Shown here piece by piece: positions 59,697 to 64,000 of a stretch of DNA of 64,000 nucleotides. The position numbers and the translations under genes were made by a program. Source of the DNA: Chitinophaga pendula (GTDB lineage Bacteria; Bacteroidota; Bacteroidia; Chitinophagales; Chitinophagaceae); assembly GCF_020386615.1 (NCBI RefSeq), contig NZ_CP077769.1, positions 3,596,001 to 3,660,000 on the forward strand, read 5' to 3'. Position 1 is the first letter of the stretch. Each line of letters opens with the position of its first letter. The notes below the pieces were generated by a model, which worked only from the letters and a program-made list of their open reading frames with translations, made no database searches and was not told where the DNA came from.

Positions 59697-61073
59697 ATGA
59701 AACATTACGACGCTATTGTGATAGGATCCGGCCAGGGAGGTACACCACTGGCGAAAAAACTAGCCAAAGCCGGATTCCATACTGCCTTAATAGAAAAAAG
59801 ATATGCCGGCGGTACCTGTGTAAACGATGGCTGTACCCCTACTAAAACCATGATAGCAGATGCCGCCGTCGCACATATCGTTCGTAATGCAGACAAGCAT
59901 GGAGTTCATATCCACGGACAACCACAAATAAATATACAGGAGATCATCCATCGCAAAAATGAAGTGGTATACCGCTTCCGCCGGGGCACGGAAAAAGGAA
60001 TAGAAGAAACAAATGGCCTGGAAATGATCTATGGAGAAGCGGTATTTACTGGCAACAAACAACTACATATCACCTGTAACGATGGAAATAGCCTCGACTG
60101 CTCCGCCGATAAAATATTCATCAACACCGGCACACGTACACAAATACCCGACATCCCGGGATTACATAAAATACCTTATCTCACTTCCACTTCTTTGTTG
60201 GATATAACAGTCATCCCAGCACACCTGATCATACTGGGAGCCGGATATATTGGACTCGAACTGGGACAACTGTTCCGCCGCCTGGGTAGTGAAGTATCCA
60301 TTATCGAAACAGCAGAACGGCTACTCCCCAAAGAAGATGAAGATGTAAGCAAAGCAATCCGCTCTTTCCTCGAAGAAGAACAAATCACTTTCCACTTACC
60401 AGCTAAAGTCAGCCAGGTGGAAGCCGCCGCAGATGGTATCAGCGTGACACTTGACAATGGCACCCGCCTGAATGGCTCTCACTTGCTTGTCGCTGCAGGC
60501 AGAACCCCGCAGACAGACCGGCTGCAACCGCGTGCCAGCGGCATTGAGCTGGACAACAAAGGATTTGTCAAAGTGAATGAATACCTGGAGACTAACGTAA
60601 AAGGTATCTATGCACTCGGTGATGTAAAAGGTGGACCAGCCTTCACACACATCGCCTACAATGATCACCTCGTGCTGGTCAAACAAATTTTGGATAACCA
60701 GCCAACAAGTATTAAAGATCGGGTGTTTCCTTATTGCATGTTCACCGATCCGCAACTGGGACGCGTAGGCATAACCGAACAGGAAGCCCGTCAACAGGGA
60801 TTGTCCATCAAAGTGGCCTGCCTGCCTATGAGCAGCACTGCCCGCGCGATAGAAACAGGCCAGACAACAGGACTGATGAAAGCAGTCGTGGACGCATCAA
60901 CTAAAAAAATACTGGGTGCCGCCATTCTCGGCCCCAATGGCGGAGAGATCATGTCCATATTGCAGATAGCCATGAAAGGTAACATCACCTACGAGGAGAT
61001 CCGCGAACAAATGTTCGCACACCCACTGCTGGCAGAATCACTTAACAACCTGTTTATGACATTGGATGCATAA
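59697..61073 (+). CDS. FAD-dependent disulfide oxidoreductase (MerA/RclA-like)
   Basis: This 458-residue flavoprotein has IVIGSGQGGTPLAKKLAKAG for FAD, the redox-active GGTCVNDGCTPTK (CX4C), a second Rossmann loop (ILGAGYIGLELGQ) for NAD(P)H, IYALGDVKGG and the C-terminal HPLLAE that provides the catalytic His. It is in the mercuric-reductase-like, E. coli RclA-like group without a metal-binding N-domain and without the C-terminal Cys pair of true MerA. The substrate is not known. It is upstream of a betaine/ergothioneine-type transporter on the same strand, with a gap of about 75 bp, so a thiol-related role is possible but not shown. Confidence 0.9.
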   Translation: MKHYDAIVIGSGQGGTPLAKKLAKAGFHTALIEKRYAGGTCVNDGCTPTKTMIADAAVAHIVRNADKHGVHIHGQPQINIQEIIHRKNEVVYRFRRGTEKGIEETNGLEMIYGEAVFTGNKQLHITCNDGNSLDCSADKIFINTGTRTQIPDIPGLHKIPYLTSTSLLDITVIPAHLIILGAGYIGLELGQLFRRLGSEVSIIETAERLLPKEDEDVSKAIRSFLEEEQITFHLPAKVSQVEAAADGISVTLDNGTRLNGSHLLVAAGRTPQTDRLQPRASGIELDNKGFVKVNEYLETNVKGIYALGDVKGGPAFTHIAYNDHLVLVKQILDNQPTSIKDRVFPYCMFTDPQLGRVGITEQEARQQGLSIKVACLPMSSTARAIETGQTTGLMKAVVDASTKKILGAAILGPNGGEIMSILQIAMKGNITYEEIREQMFAHPLLAESLNNLFMTLDA

Positions 61074-61147
61074 ACGACGCATATACAATCTGAGTACTTA
61101 TTTCCCCAGCCGGCGCTATGTACGGTTGTCATACAAATTCACGCCGC

Positions 61148-62104
61148 ATGATCCATGTATCCCATGTCTCTAAATCTTTTGATGCCGGTATTAAAGCAGT
61201 AGATGATGTATCCTTCGAAGTAGCTACCGGCGAGACCATGATCCTCCTCGGTACCAGCGGTTGCGGTAAGACTACTACGCTGCGTATGCTCAACAGATTG
61301 ATCGCGCCGGGTGCCGGCACCATCTCCATCGATGGCCACCCCATAGATGCCCAGCCAGTCACCCAGCTCAGACGCAGCATAGGATATGTGCTGCAGGACA
61401 ATGGACTGTTCCCCCATTATACCGTCGAGGAAAACATTGCCATCGTCCCCCGACTGCTACGATGGGAACCCTCCCGCATCCGGTCACGTACCAACACCTT
61501 ACTCGAAAAACTACACCTCGATCCGGGTCAATACCTGCAAGCCTACCCTCCTCAGCTGAGCGGCGGACAACAGCAACGCGTAGGCCTCGCCAGGGCACTG
61601 GCAGCCGATCCCCCCATACTACTCATGGACGAACCTTTCGGCGCCCTCGACCCCGTCACAAGAGGACATGTAAGACGCGACTTCATGGCCCTCGACGAAT
61701 TGGTCCAAAAAACCATCGTCATGGTCACACACGATATTCCGGAAGCCTTTGAACTGGCAGATCGCATCTGCCTCATGCACCAGGGCAGGATACAACAGAC
61801 AGGCGCACCGGCAGACCTGCTCTTCCGCCCTGCTAACGCATTTGTCCGCTCTTTCTTCGACGAACAAAGACTACAATTGGAATTCAATGTGCTAAAGATC
61901 AGCGATATATGGCATTTGCTCCCCGATCAGGCACACCCGGTATCCACACAGCCTCCCGCCGATGCAGCCATCACCTACTGGCAAGCCATGGAGCAAATCA
62001 GCCAGGCCCCCGATGGCAGGATATATGTACAACACCAGCAAGCCGTCCGTTCACTGGATAGCCAACAACTTCTAACCGCATTCAGGGCCTTTAAAAAACA
62101 ATAG
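61148..62104 (+). CDS. ABC transporter ATPase, OpuC/EgtV type
   Basis: This ATPase has 318 residues from the ATG at 61148 (MIHVSHVSKSF); an ATG at 61118 would add ten residues. It has Walker A LLGTSGCGKTT, the Q-loop, the signature LSGGQQQRV, Walker B ILLMDEPFGALD and the H-loop VTHDIPEAF. The C-terminal extension (about 240-318) is short and does not form a recognisable CBS pair. The sequence is closest to ATPases of quaternary-amine transporters (OpuCA/ProV group). The stop codon is only 3 bp before the permease start codon, so the two are translated from one transcript. It powers the permease-binding-domain fusion next to it. Confidence 0.93.
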   Translation: MIHVSHVSKSFDAGIKAVDDVSFEVATGETMILLGTSGCGKTTTLRMLNRLIAPGAGTISIDGHPIDAQPVTQLRRSIGYVLQDNGLFPHYTVEENIAIVPRLLRWEPSRIRSRTNTLLEKLHLDPGQYLQAYPPQLSGGQQQRVGLARALAADPPILLMDEPFGALDPVTRGHVRRDFMALDELVQKTIVMVTHDIPEAFELADRICLMHQGRIQQTGAPADLLFRPANAFVRSFFDEQRLQLEFNVLKISDIWHLLPDQAHPVSTQPPADAAITYWQAMEQISQAPDGRIYVQHQQAVRSLDSQQLLTAFRAFKKQ

Positions 62105-62107
62105 CGC

Positions 62108-63679
62108 ATGGAGCAACCACCCAGCTTCTGGACATTCCTCTCTCAGCAGTCCGGCAAACTACTGGAACAAACCCTCGAACATATCGGCCTTACCTGCATC
62201 TCCTTACTATTCGCAGTAGCCTTAGGCGTACTATTAGGTATACTCATCACCCGTAAACAAAAACTGGCGGGCATCATACTGGGCATCGCCGGCGTATTGC
62301 AAACCATTCCCAGCATCGCCCTATTGGGCTTCATGATCCCCTTGCTGGGCATCGGCCCCCGCCCCGCCATCGTCGCCTTATTCCTTTATGCTTTGCTACC
62401 TATCATCCGTAATACCTACACAGGCATTATGGGCGTGTCTCCTTCCGTAATCGAAGCCGCCAGAGGCATGGGAATGAGCGAACGGCAGATATTACGCAAA
62501 GTACAACTGCCTCTCGCAATGCCCGTACTCCTCGCCGGCATCCGCACCGCCACCGTCATCAATGTCGGCGTCGCCACCCTCGCCGCCTATATCGCCGCCG
62601 GCGGACTGGGAGAATTCATCTTCGGTGGCATCGCCCTCAATAATATGAATATGATGCTGGCAGGGGCCATCCCGGCCGCTTTGCTAGCTGTCGCCTTCGA
62701 CTGGGCCCTCTCCCGCCTGCAACATATGCAGTGGCGACGCACACGCGCCGCCACCTGGAGCCTCCCCGTCCTGTTACTGCTCCTGTCCTCCTTTTACCTC
62801 CTCCCCAGAGCCTATGGCAGCAAACTGGTAGCAGGATTCACCCCCGAATTCATGGGCCGAATGGATGGCTACCTCGGCCTAAAAAAAATATATAACCTGC
62901 AAATCCGCACAGTGGTCATCAACGATATGATCATGTACAAAGCAGCAGCAGAGAAAAGACTGGACGTCATCAGTGGCAGCAGCACCGACGGCAGGGTCAA
63001 AGCCTTCGACCTGCTCGTACTGGACGACGATAAACATATATTTCCACCTTACTACGCCGCCCCCATCGTACGCACCGCCACACTACAACAATATCCCACA
63101 CTCGCACCTGCGATCAACCTGCTGTCTGGCACTATTAATGATAGCATTATGACAGCACTTAACTACCGGGTGGATCATCTGAAACAAAGCCCGGAGAAAG
63201 TAGCTCGGGATTTCTTGCAGGACAAAGGATTACTGCAACCTGGCAGGGGCGGACAGGCAGGCACCATCGTCATCGGCTCCAAGATATTCGGCGATGGATA
63301 TATACTGGCAAATATGTACAAACTGCTGATAGAAGGTCATACCGACCTGCGCGTAGCTACCAAAACCGGCCTCGGCGGCACCAAAATATGCTTCGATGCC
63401 TTGCGTAACGCGCAGATCGATATGTACCCCGAATATAGCGGCACCGGCCTGCTGGCCATCCTCCAGGCAACACCTGCCGTAGTAGATTCCCTCCGGCAGG
63501 ACCCCGACCGTGTATACAATTATGTAAGACAACAATTCCTGCAACAATATGCGATCACATGGATGAAACCCATCGGCTTCAACAACACTTACGCTCTCAT
63601 GATGCGGAAACAACAGGCCCATGATCTCCATATCCGGTCCATATCCGACCTGCAGCAATATTTAAAGTCTCATAGGTAA
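62108..63679 (+). CDS. ABC permease fused to a binding domain with swapped halves (OpuC/EgtU type)
   Basis: The 523-residue protein joins a ProW-like permease (about 1-225, with EAA-loop EAARGMGMSERQILRKVQLP) to an OpuC-type substrate-binding domain. The binding domain is permuted: the second half of the standard order comes first (GFTPEFMGRMDGY at about 242, STDGRVKAFDL at about 291, DDKHIFPPYYAAP, LNYRVD, VARDFL), followed by the first half (TIVIGSKIFGDGYI at about 385, TGLGGTK, YPEYSGTG, GFNNTYA at about 489, SDLQQYL). All key segments are present. It is likely an importer of a quaternary-amine compound; the egtB gene right behind it suggests ergothioneine, hercynine or a betaine. Confidence 0.9.
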   Translation: MEQPPSFWTFLSQQSGKLLEQTLEHIGLTCISLLFAVALGVLLGILITRKQKLAGIILGIAGVLQTIPSIALLGFMIPLLGIGPRPAIVALFLYALLPIIRNTYTGIMGVSPSVIEAARGMGMSERQILRKVQLPLAMPVLLAGIRTATVINVGVATLAAYIAAGGLGEFIFGGIALNNMNMMLAGAIPAALLAVAFDWALSRLQHMQWRRTRAATWSLPVLLLLLSSFYLLPRAYGSKLVAGFTPEFMGRMDGYLGLKKIYNLQIRTVVINDMIMYKAAAEKRLDVISGSSTDGRVKAFDLLVLDDDKHIFPPYYAAPIVRTATLQQYPTLAPAINLLSGTINDSIMTALNYRVDHLKQSPEKVARDFLQDKGLLQPGRGGQAGTIVIGSKIFGDGYILANMYKLLIEGHTDLRVATKTGLGGTKICFDALRNAQIDMYPEYSGTGLLAILQATPAVVDSLRQDPDRVYNYVRQQFLQQYAITWMKPIGFNNTYALMMRKQQAHDLHIRSISDLQQYLKSHR

Positions 63680-63692
63680 CCACCAACTGCTT

Positions 63693-64000
63693 ATGCAACT
63701 ATCAGAACAATATCGCATCGTAAGAGAAAGATCCATGCAGATCTGCAAACCGCTACACACCGAAGACTTCGTCGTGCAGCCGGTCGTAGATGTCAGCCCT
63801 CCAAAATGGCATATGGGACACACCACCTGGTTCTTCGAAACCTTCCTGCTGAAACCCTATGCCAAAGGATACACCGAATTCGATGCTGACTACAACTTTG
63901 TATTCAACAGCTACTACGAATCCGTAGGCGCCAGGGTCATCCGCACCGACAGAGGTAACCTGAGCCGCCCGGGTGTAGAAGAAGTAATGCGCTACCGCGC
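63693..64000 (+). CDS. egtB: Ergothioneine biosynthesis protein EgtB, N-terminal part
   Basis: The frame is open from the ATG at 63693 to the window edge (about 102 residues seen). It has the DinB-like N-terminal domain with SPPKWHMGHTTWFFETF, whose His (H40, H43) include an expected iron ligand, then FNSYYESVGARV, both typical of EgtB/OvoA-type sulfoxide synthases that join hercynine and a thiol. The C-terminal FGE-like domain lies outside the window. The ATG is 13 bp after the transporter gene, so co-transcription is likely. An egtD gene should follow outside. Confidence 0.88.
   Translation, partial: MQLSEQYRIVRERSMQICKPLHTEDFVVQPVVDVSPPKWHMGHTTWFFETFLLKPYAKGYTEFDADYNFVFNSYYESVGARVIRTDRGNLSRPGVEEVMRYR

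Follow-up and report, generated by a model that had tools for sequence, protein, structure and literature searches.

The window, a 64,000-nucleotide stretch of the Chitinophaga pendula genome, carries near its end an ORF (62108-63679, plus strand) encoding a 523-residue fusion of an ABC permease with a binding domain (SBD). The genes around it run in the order FAD disulfide oxidoreductase, ProV-like ATPase, fusion, EgtB and EgtD (Table 1); 44 bases separate the oxidoreductase ORF from that of the ATPase, 3 the ATPase from the permease, and 13 the permease from egtB. The ProV-like ATPase is likely the partner of the permease, and the FAD enzyme could act on a thiol disulfide. EgtB scores 537 bits against TIGR03440 (cut-off 360) and also reaches 364 of the 420 bits required by SenA, the model for selenoneine synthases; EgtD scores 301 bits against TIGR03438 (cut-off 290.9). 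An EgtE-like PLP enzyme lies further on, on the opposite strand, and reaches 145.8 of the 400 bits of the EgtE cut-off and 153.2 of 475.1 bits for the SufS model.

Table 1. Features of the transporter locus (positions in the window)
Feature	Position	Strand	Description
FAD pyridine-nucleotide-disulfide oxidoreductase	59697..61073	+	beside the transporter
ABC ATPase, ProV-like	61118..62104	+	PF00005; TIGR01186 285 bits, under the cut-off of 326.6
Permease (TMD)	62108..62752	+	residues 1-215, MetI-like core
Extra helix	62732..62815	+	residues 209-236; helix seen in the structure model
D2h, normally the C-terminal SBD half	62819..63235	+	residues 238-376; GFTPEF, DGY, STDGR, DDK-FPPY
Linker, old C terminus to old N terminus	63236..63259	+	residues 377-384, between the matched halves
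D1h, normally the N-terminal SBD half	63260..63661	+	residues 385-518; IGSK, GLGGT, YPEYSGT, GFNNTYA, SDL
egtB, start	63693..64000	+	382 aa, extends past the window; egtD next in the genome

The permease part has a PF00528 domain and a MetI-like fold, as in type I ABC importers. The extra helix is a putative sixth transmembrane segment that would carry the chain to the periplasm. Behind it, residues 238-376 correspond to the C-terminal half of EgtUC/OpuCC-type binding proteins and residues 377-518 to their N-terminal half. This swapped order is concordant across Pfam, phmmer searches of the PDB, and a profile from 46 relatives; PF04069, the model for quaternary-ammonium SBDs of cluster F, matches the 523-residue protein with 182 bits (cut-off 21.2) in two stretches that cover both halves. 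None of the linker columns (377-384) is invariant or nearly so in alignment A1. The first-pass annotation, made from the sequence alone, had described a ProW-like permease fused to a binding domain with its halves in reverse order, and the Pfam and phmmer matches and the residue alignment agree; its view that the halves are complete, and hence swapped rather than lost, is confirmed by the matches to both. With both complete halves exchanged within one chain, as in Bacillus subtilis OpuAC, the SBD is circularly permuted. Two proteins of the whole genome match PF04069: the fusion, where the match comes as two stretches in swapped order, and a separate OpuAC-type protein, where it is a single colinear stretch.

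Structure prediction, which the first-pass annotation had proposed as a check, gave a single-chain model with pLDDT of at least 86 in 24 of the 29 ten-residue blocks from residue 241 and a helix at residues 209-236. The model superposes colinearly on permuted OpuAC over 242 residues; Foldseek aligns it with EgtUC at 36% identity across 159 columns. Because bilobed domains are pseudo-symmetric, colinear fits alone are weak evidence, and the claim about the order of the halves is drawn from the sequence. The model matches both OpuAC and Lactococcus lactis OpuA colinearly, which was first taken to mean a single order; this reading was overturned, since the sequences show B. subtilis OpuAC to be permuted and L. 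lactis OpuA canonical. The match to 7ahh (380 aligned, 5.8 Å) was excluded as evidence on half order. In EgtU, lobe D1 comprises residues 233-331 and 445-506 and lobe D2 residues 341-432 (PMC9732360). Residue 239 of the window protein (P0001) aligns with EgtUC chain position 138, about residue 367 by the checked offset, so the cut would fall within D2. D1, split in EgtU, would thus be continuous in the permuted protein and D2 split, with the tether shifted from D1 to D2.

A scan of named genomes yielded 67 loci of the family (L003-L068 and L076) among the best 80 of 106 relatives, and 66 of these have the swapped order. The exception, L068, is cut by a contig edge and retains D1h only; in the MAG locus L066 the permuted protein is split across two frames. 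The remaining 13 of the best 80 loci encode separate permeases, with a canonical SBD in 11, only a D1h match in L078, and no SBD in L071. The swapped order also occurs in 237 of 238 database proteins, which comprise two overlapping best-120 lists and the window's own protein: 234 read permease-D2h-D1h and three permease-permease-D2h-D1h, and the exception, P0168 (385 aa), ends after D2h. Names among the listed matches include Chitinophaga, Mucilaginibacter, Opitutaceae, KSB1, Aminicenantes, and a cyanobacterial MAG. In the pool of 259 permuted proteins the permease stands in front in 258, the other (L076) being a contig-edge fragment. A search of fused permeases for the same order had been suggested as a check; because the order is common to many relatives, we regard it as real and inherited. 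None of the 238 proteins, whose best-120 lists are biased to close kin, matches D1h or D2h more than once, as a tandem-SBD intermediate of a duplication route would.

The proteins with two permeases (P0066, P0105, and P0146) carry them in one chain of 779-805 aa with a single permuted binding domain. A quick permease tree groups the four copies from P0066 and P0105 and places the two from P0146 elsewhere, which suggests separate duplications.

To survey the phylum, 395 Bacteroidota genomes were drawn evenly and searched with the SBD only; 53 had a match at 1e-10. The domain is permuted in 22 (the window's genome and 21 of 21 fetched loci) and canonical in 31 (31 of 31 fetched). The permuted domain always stands behind a permease (22/22). 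The canonical proteins (L137-L167; 31 of the 395 genomes) show the mirror architecture, in which the SBD is N-terminal to the permease in all 31; they belong to the same transporter family as the window protein and differ from it in both the order of the SBD halves and the side of the permease on which the SBD lies. One of them, L137, has a signal-peptide-like stretch at its start by eye. Permease-first proteins with a canonical SBD number 121, of which 120 were retrieved with a Niallia protein as query and the remaining one is L085; they are Bacillota where named. In the phylum of an Opitutaceae MAG (L059), 4 of 240 genomes match at 1e-12 and only the Opitutaceae genome is permuted, the other three (G410, G563, and G582, which has stops) being canonical as read from coordinates.

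The first-pass annotation had also mentioned circular permutation among betaine-binding proteins (OpuAC versus ProX types), and here it was right. The OpuAC of C. pendula aligns with B. subtilis OpuAC (2b4l) as two segments in swapped order (query residues 108-233 with chain 10-136, and 2-103 with chain 166-268), but with L. lactis 3l6g and 7ahc as one continuous segment. Lactiplantibacillus OpuAC (L178, L179) is swapped with the same cut as the fusion, and an Enterococcus faecalis OpuA-type fusion (L180) is not; the Caballeronia locus L181 was left out of this comparison. The Lactiplantibacillus proteins (L178:2417-3325, L179:2372-3289) are encoded on plasmids, and their annotation is that of ordinary glycine betaine binding proteins. 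B. subtilis and Lactiplantibacillus OpuAC thus share the permuted order and the cut loop with the fusion, but their SBD genes are separate and they belong to another sequence branch. The OpuA-type fusions (7ahc, 3l6g, L180) share the single permease-SBD chain but have a canonical SBD. OpuAC was absent from the phmmer matches of the window protein at 1e-3; profile A1 found 3l6g at 0.017 and 7ahc mainly through its permease (best stretch 16-286), as against 1e-70 to 1e-73 for EgtUC. In sequence, the SBD is not nearer to OpuAC than to EgtUC/OpuCC. Both branches match PF04069, and a remote kinship therefore stands.

Work by Horn in 2006 reportedly spoke of "domain dislocation" in OpuAC. Neither "permut" nor "dislocat" occurs in passages of PMC2861598. 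Circular permutation among betaine-binding proteins, including 2b4l, 1r9l, and 1sw1, is recorded by CPSARST (PMC2395249). Among the open-access matches listed, no title or opening of an abstract concerned a permuted permease-SBD fusion. Circular permutation is already known in betaine-binding proteins, with the same cut in OpuAC, and the permuted permease fusion would be a novel variant. EgtU (Streptococcus pneumoniae SPD_1642) and OpuF-type fusions resemble the window protein in the permease-then-SBD chain, partner ATPase, and cage frame, but differ in that the window protein's SBD halves are swapped and the residues corresponding to G244 and F293 replaced; homologs of the S. pneumoniae protein are described as nearly exclusive to Firmicutes (PMC9732360). 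TpMglB-2 of Treponema pallidum is a natural circular permutant of a solute-binding protein for which the authors raise tethering as a possible cause; unlike the fusion it has a sugar-binding Cluster B fold and another rearrangement, and it is described as a lipoprotein rather than a permease fusion (PMC4990184).

A tree of both arrangements had been suggested as a further check. In a careful tree of order-normalized halves, the permuted rows form one clade (40 rows, 99/96), and the SBD-permease proteins (23, 100/99), the Bacillota permease-SBD proteins (15, 100/99), and the free SBDs (11, 99/99) each form a single group, set apart from all other rows by one branch. The fragment P0168 was excluded from counts and trees alike; the trees also omit permuted proteins no longer than 480 aa, close duplicates as judged by identity, and any Bacillota rows after the fifteenth. 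A quick SBD tree that includes L079, which was omitted from the careful tree and from the OpuAC test below, agrees (permuted group 91). The permease-only quick tree, from which 3 of 28 separate permeases were left out, does not resolve the question: it has long branches and is poorly resolved, and the permuted label needs two changes, of which the starred branches force only one. A single origin of the permutation is thus supported by the SBD tree and not by the permease alone.

With OpuAC-type rows added (51 rows, 4 of them OpuAC-type; every second row of four groups dropped), one clade joining the permuted EgtU-like rows and the two permuted OpuAC rows was rejected (p-AU 4.4e-6), which implies either two or more changes of order or a single change followed by a reversal. 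In this tree 22% of bootstraps unite the permuted EgtU-like rows, and the rows nearest the very distant OpuAC branch are the permuted ones, which counts against a simple story of two gains.

In the binding pocket, the cage and carboxylate-binding residues K392, Y443, T446, N493, Y495, E247, R251, and Y315 are present, with E247 and R251 retaining Glu375 and Arg379 of EgtU. Seven chosen EgtUC positions (K242, T296, N339, Y341, E375, R379, and Y443) are intact in 220 of 258 permuted proteins. The EgtUC cage tyrosine Y419 is S291 in the window protein, and the 258 have Ser in 96, Phe in 93, and Tyr in 60. Two EgtU residues are replaced: Gly244 by F394 (Phe in 229 of 258) and Phe293 by Y443 (Tyr in 251 of 258); the same Phe/Tyr pair occurs in all 31 canonical Bacteroidota fusions. 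The substitutions G244F and F293Y lower ergothioneine affinity ∼100-fold and ∼10-fold, respectively, in a table of PMC9732360, where the glycine-betaine-binding AfProX is also given a Phe in place of G244. These residues leave several possible substrates: ergothioneine at reduced affinity, hercynine, or some other betaine.

EgtB and EgtD homologs both occur in the fetched stretch at 55 of the 67 named loci; in the survey the figures are 12 of 21 for permuted loci and 6 of 31 for canonical ones. Neither is present at 11 of the 67, including seven loci from Hymenobacter. A homolog of the oxidoreductase lies in 45 of the 67 (again among the best 80 of 106 relatives), and in Ligilactobacillus (L085:6573-7904) a distant relative with 28% identity adjoins a canonical fusion. 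Genome-wide, with eight genomes with weak matches set aside, EgtD is found in 22 of 22 genomes with the permuted form and 30 of 31 with the canonical fusion. Where both forms are absent the figure is 76 of 342 (Fisher p for the two fusion types relative to this group, 4e-14 and 3e-17, respectively, not corrected for shared ancestry). EgtB exceeds its cut-off in 20/22, 25/31, and 68/342 of the same groups. This co-occurrence links both types of fusion to the metabolism of trimethylhistidine or ergothioneine. Two genomes with the permuted form (G081 and G364) have EgtD but lack an EgtB above its cut-off, a hint that the pathway ends at hercynine or uses another sulfur step. We examined the ORFs of both clusters (L135 and L133) and ran Pfam on two from L135; in L135:2552-6846 (G081), the genes run EgtD, DUF427 protein, ATPase, permuted transporter, and L133 (G364) has a similar small protein by eye. 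The Opitutaceae MAG yields a single EgtD match (3.1e-5), which stays below the cut-off, and the clade is therefore not uniformly tied to ergothioneine. In L059:2206-5084 an asparagine-synthase-like protein and a methyltransferase precede the ATPase and permuted transporter.

We consider it probable that the window protein is the permease-SBD subunit of an EgtU/OpuF-related type I importer, its SBD permuted most likely once and its role most likely the import or recapture of ergothioneine or hercynine. A circular permutation, most likely a single one in the ancestor of a large clade, would have joined the old domain ends in lobe D1 through the short linker and opened new ends in the loop of lobe D2 that leads from the SDL helix to the strand preceding GFTPEF. 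The membrane tether would then enter D2 rather than D1. Because both halves and most cage residues are kept, the domain is predicted to close on a quaternary-ammonium ligand and to pass it to the permease dimer, driven by the neighboring ATPase; in C. pendula this ligand would most likely be ergothioneine or its precursor hercynine.

An artefact of assembly or annotation as the source of the swapped order is so improbable as to be negligible: no point in its favor was found, the genome is a single contig with an intact ORF, and the order recurs in all but one of the named loci and all but one of the listed database proteins. A domain swap within the permease dimer, pairing D1 with the D2 of the other subunit and dispensing with circular permutation, deserves slightly more weight yet seems improbable. 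Type I importers have a dimeric permease, this one is expected to be dimeric, and a single-chain model is compatible with a swap; the confidence of most model blocks, the fit to permuted OpuAC, and the shortness of the linker joining the old ends speak for a permuted domain within one chain.

As to substrate, a general osmoprotectant importer (of glycine betaine, choline, or similar), beside which egtB and egtD lie for regulatory reasons or by accident, would accommodate the Phe and Tyr at the two ergothioneine-affinity positions, the Phe shared with AfProX, and the Opitutaceae genome without EgtD over the cut-off. We nevertheless judge it unlikely, given the presence of EgtD in all 22 permuted genomes of the survey compared with fewer than a quarter of those with neither form. 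EgtD likewise accompanies the differently built canonical fusion, 6 of whose 31 loci hold EgtB and EgtD together, and C. pendula already has a separate OpuAC-type system. The prospect that the permutation is neutral, a duplication followed by loss with no functional meaning in the change of tethered lobe, is only a little short of even. The 121 permease-first relatives with a canonical SBD, nearly all found with such a query, would fit it, as would the occurrence of both orders in the OpuAC branch; set against this are the recurrence of the same cut in that branch and the restriction of the permuted domain to positions behind a permease in a survey that used the SBD only.

A more speculative proposal can be put forward tentatively: the same-site permutation may have arisen at least twice because it moves the tether from D1 to the pseudo-equivalent place in D2, in a docking geometry that would favor fused or anchored importers, and the importer of this clade may be dedicated to ergothioneine or hercynine, with hercynine likelier where EgtB is lacking. 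One transporter family includes free SBDs, permease-SBD and SBD-permease fusions with canonical domains, and fusions of one or two permeases with a permuted SBD. With these five architectures in one family, the question raised by TpMglB-2, whether permutation answers a need for tethering, becomes testable with close homologs. The distribution also points to an uptake route linked to trimethylhistidine or ergothioneine synthesis beyond the Firmicutes.
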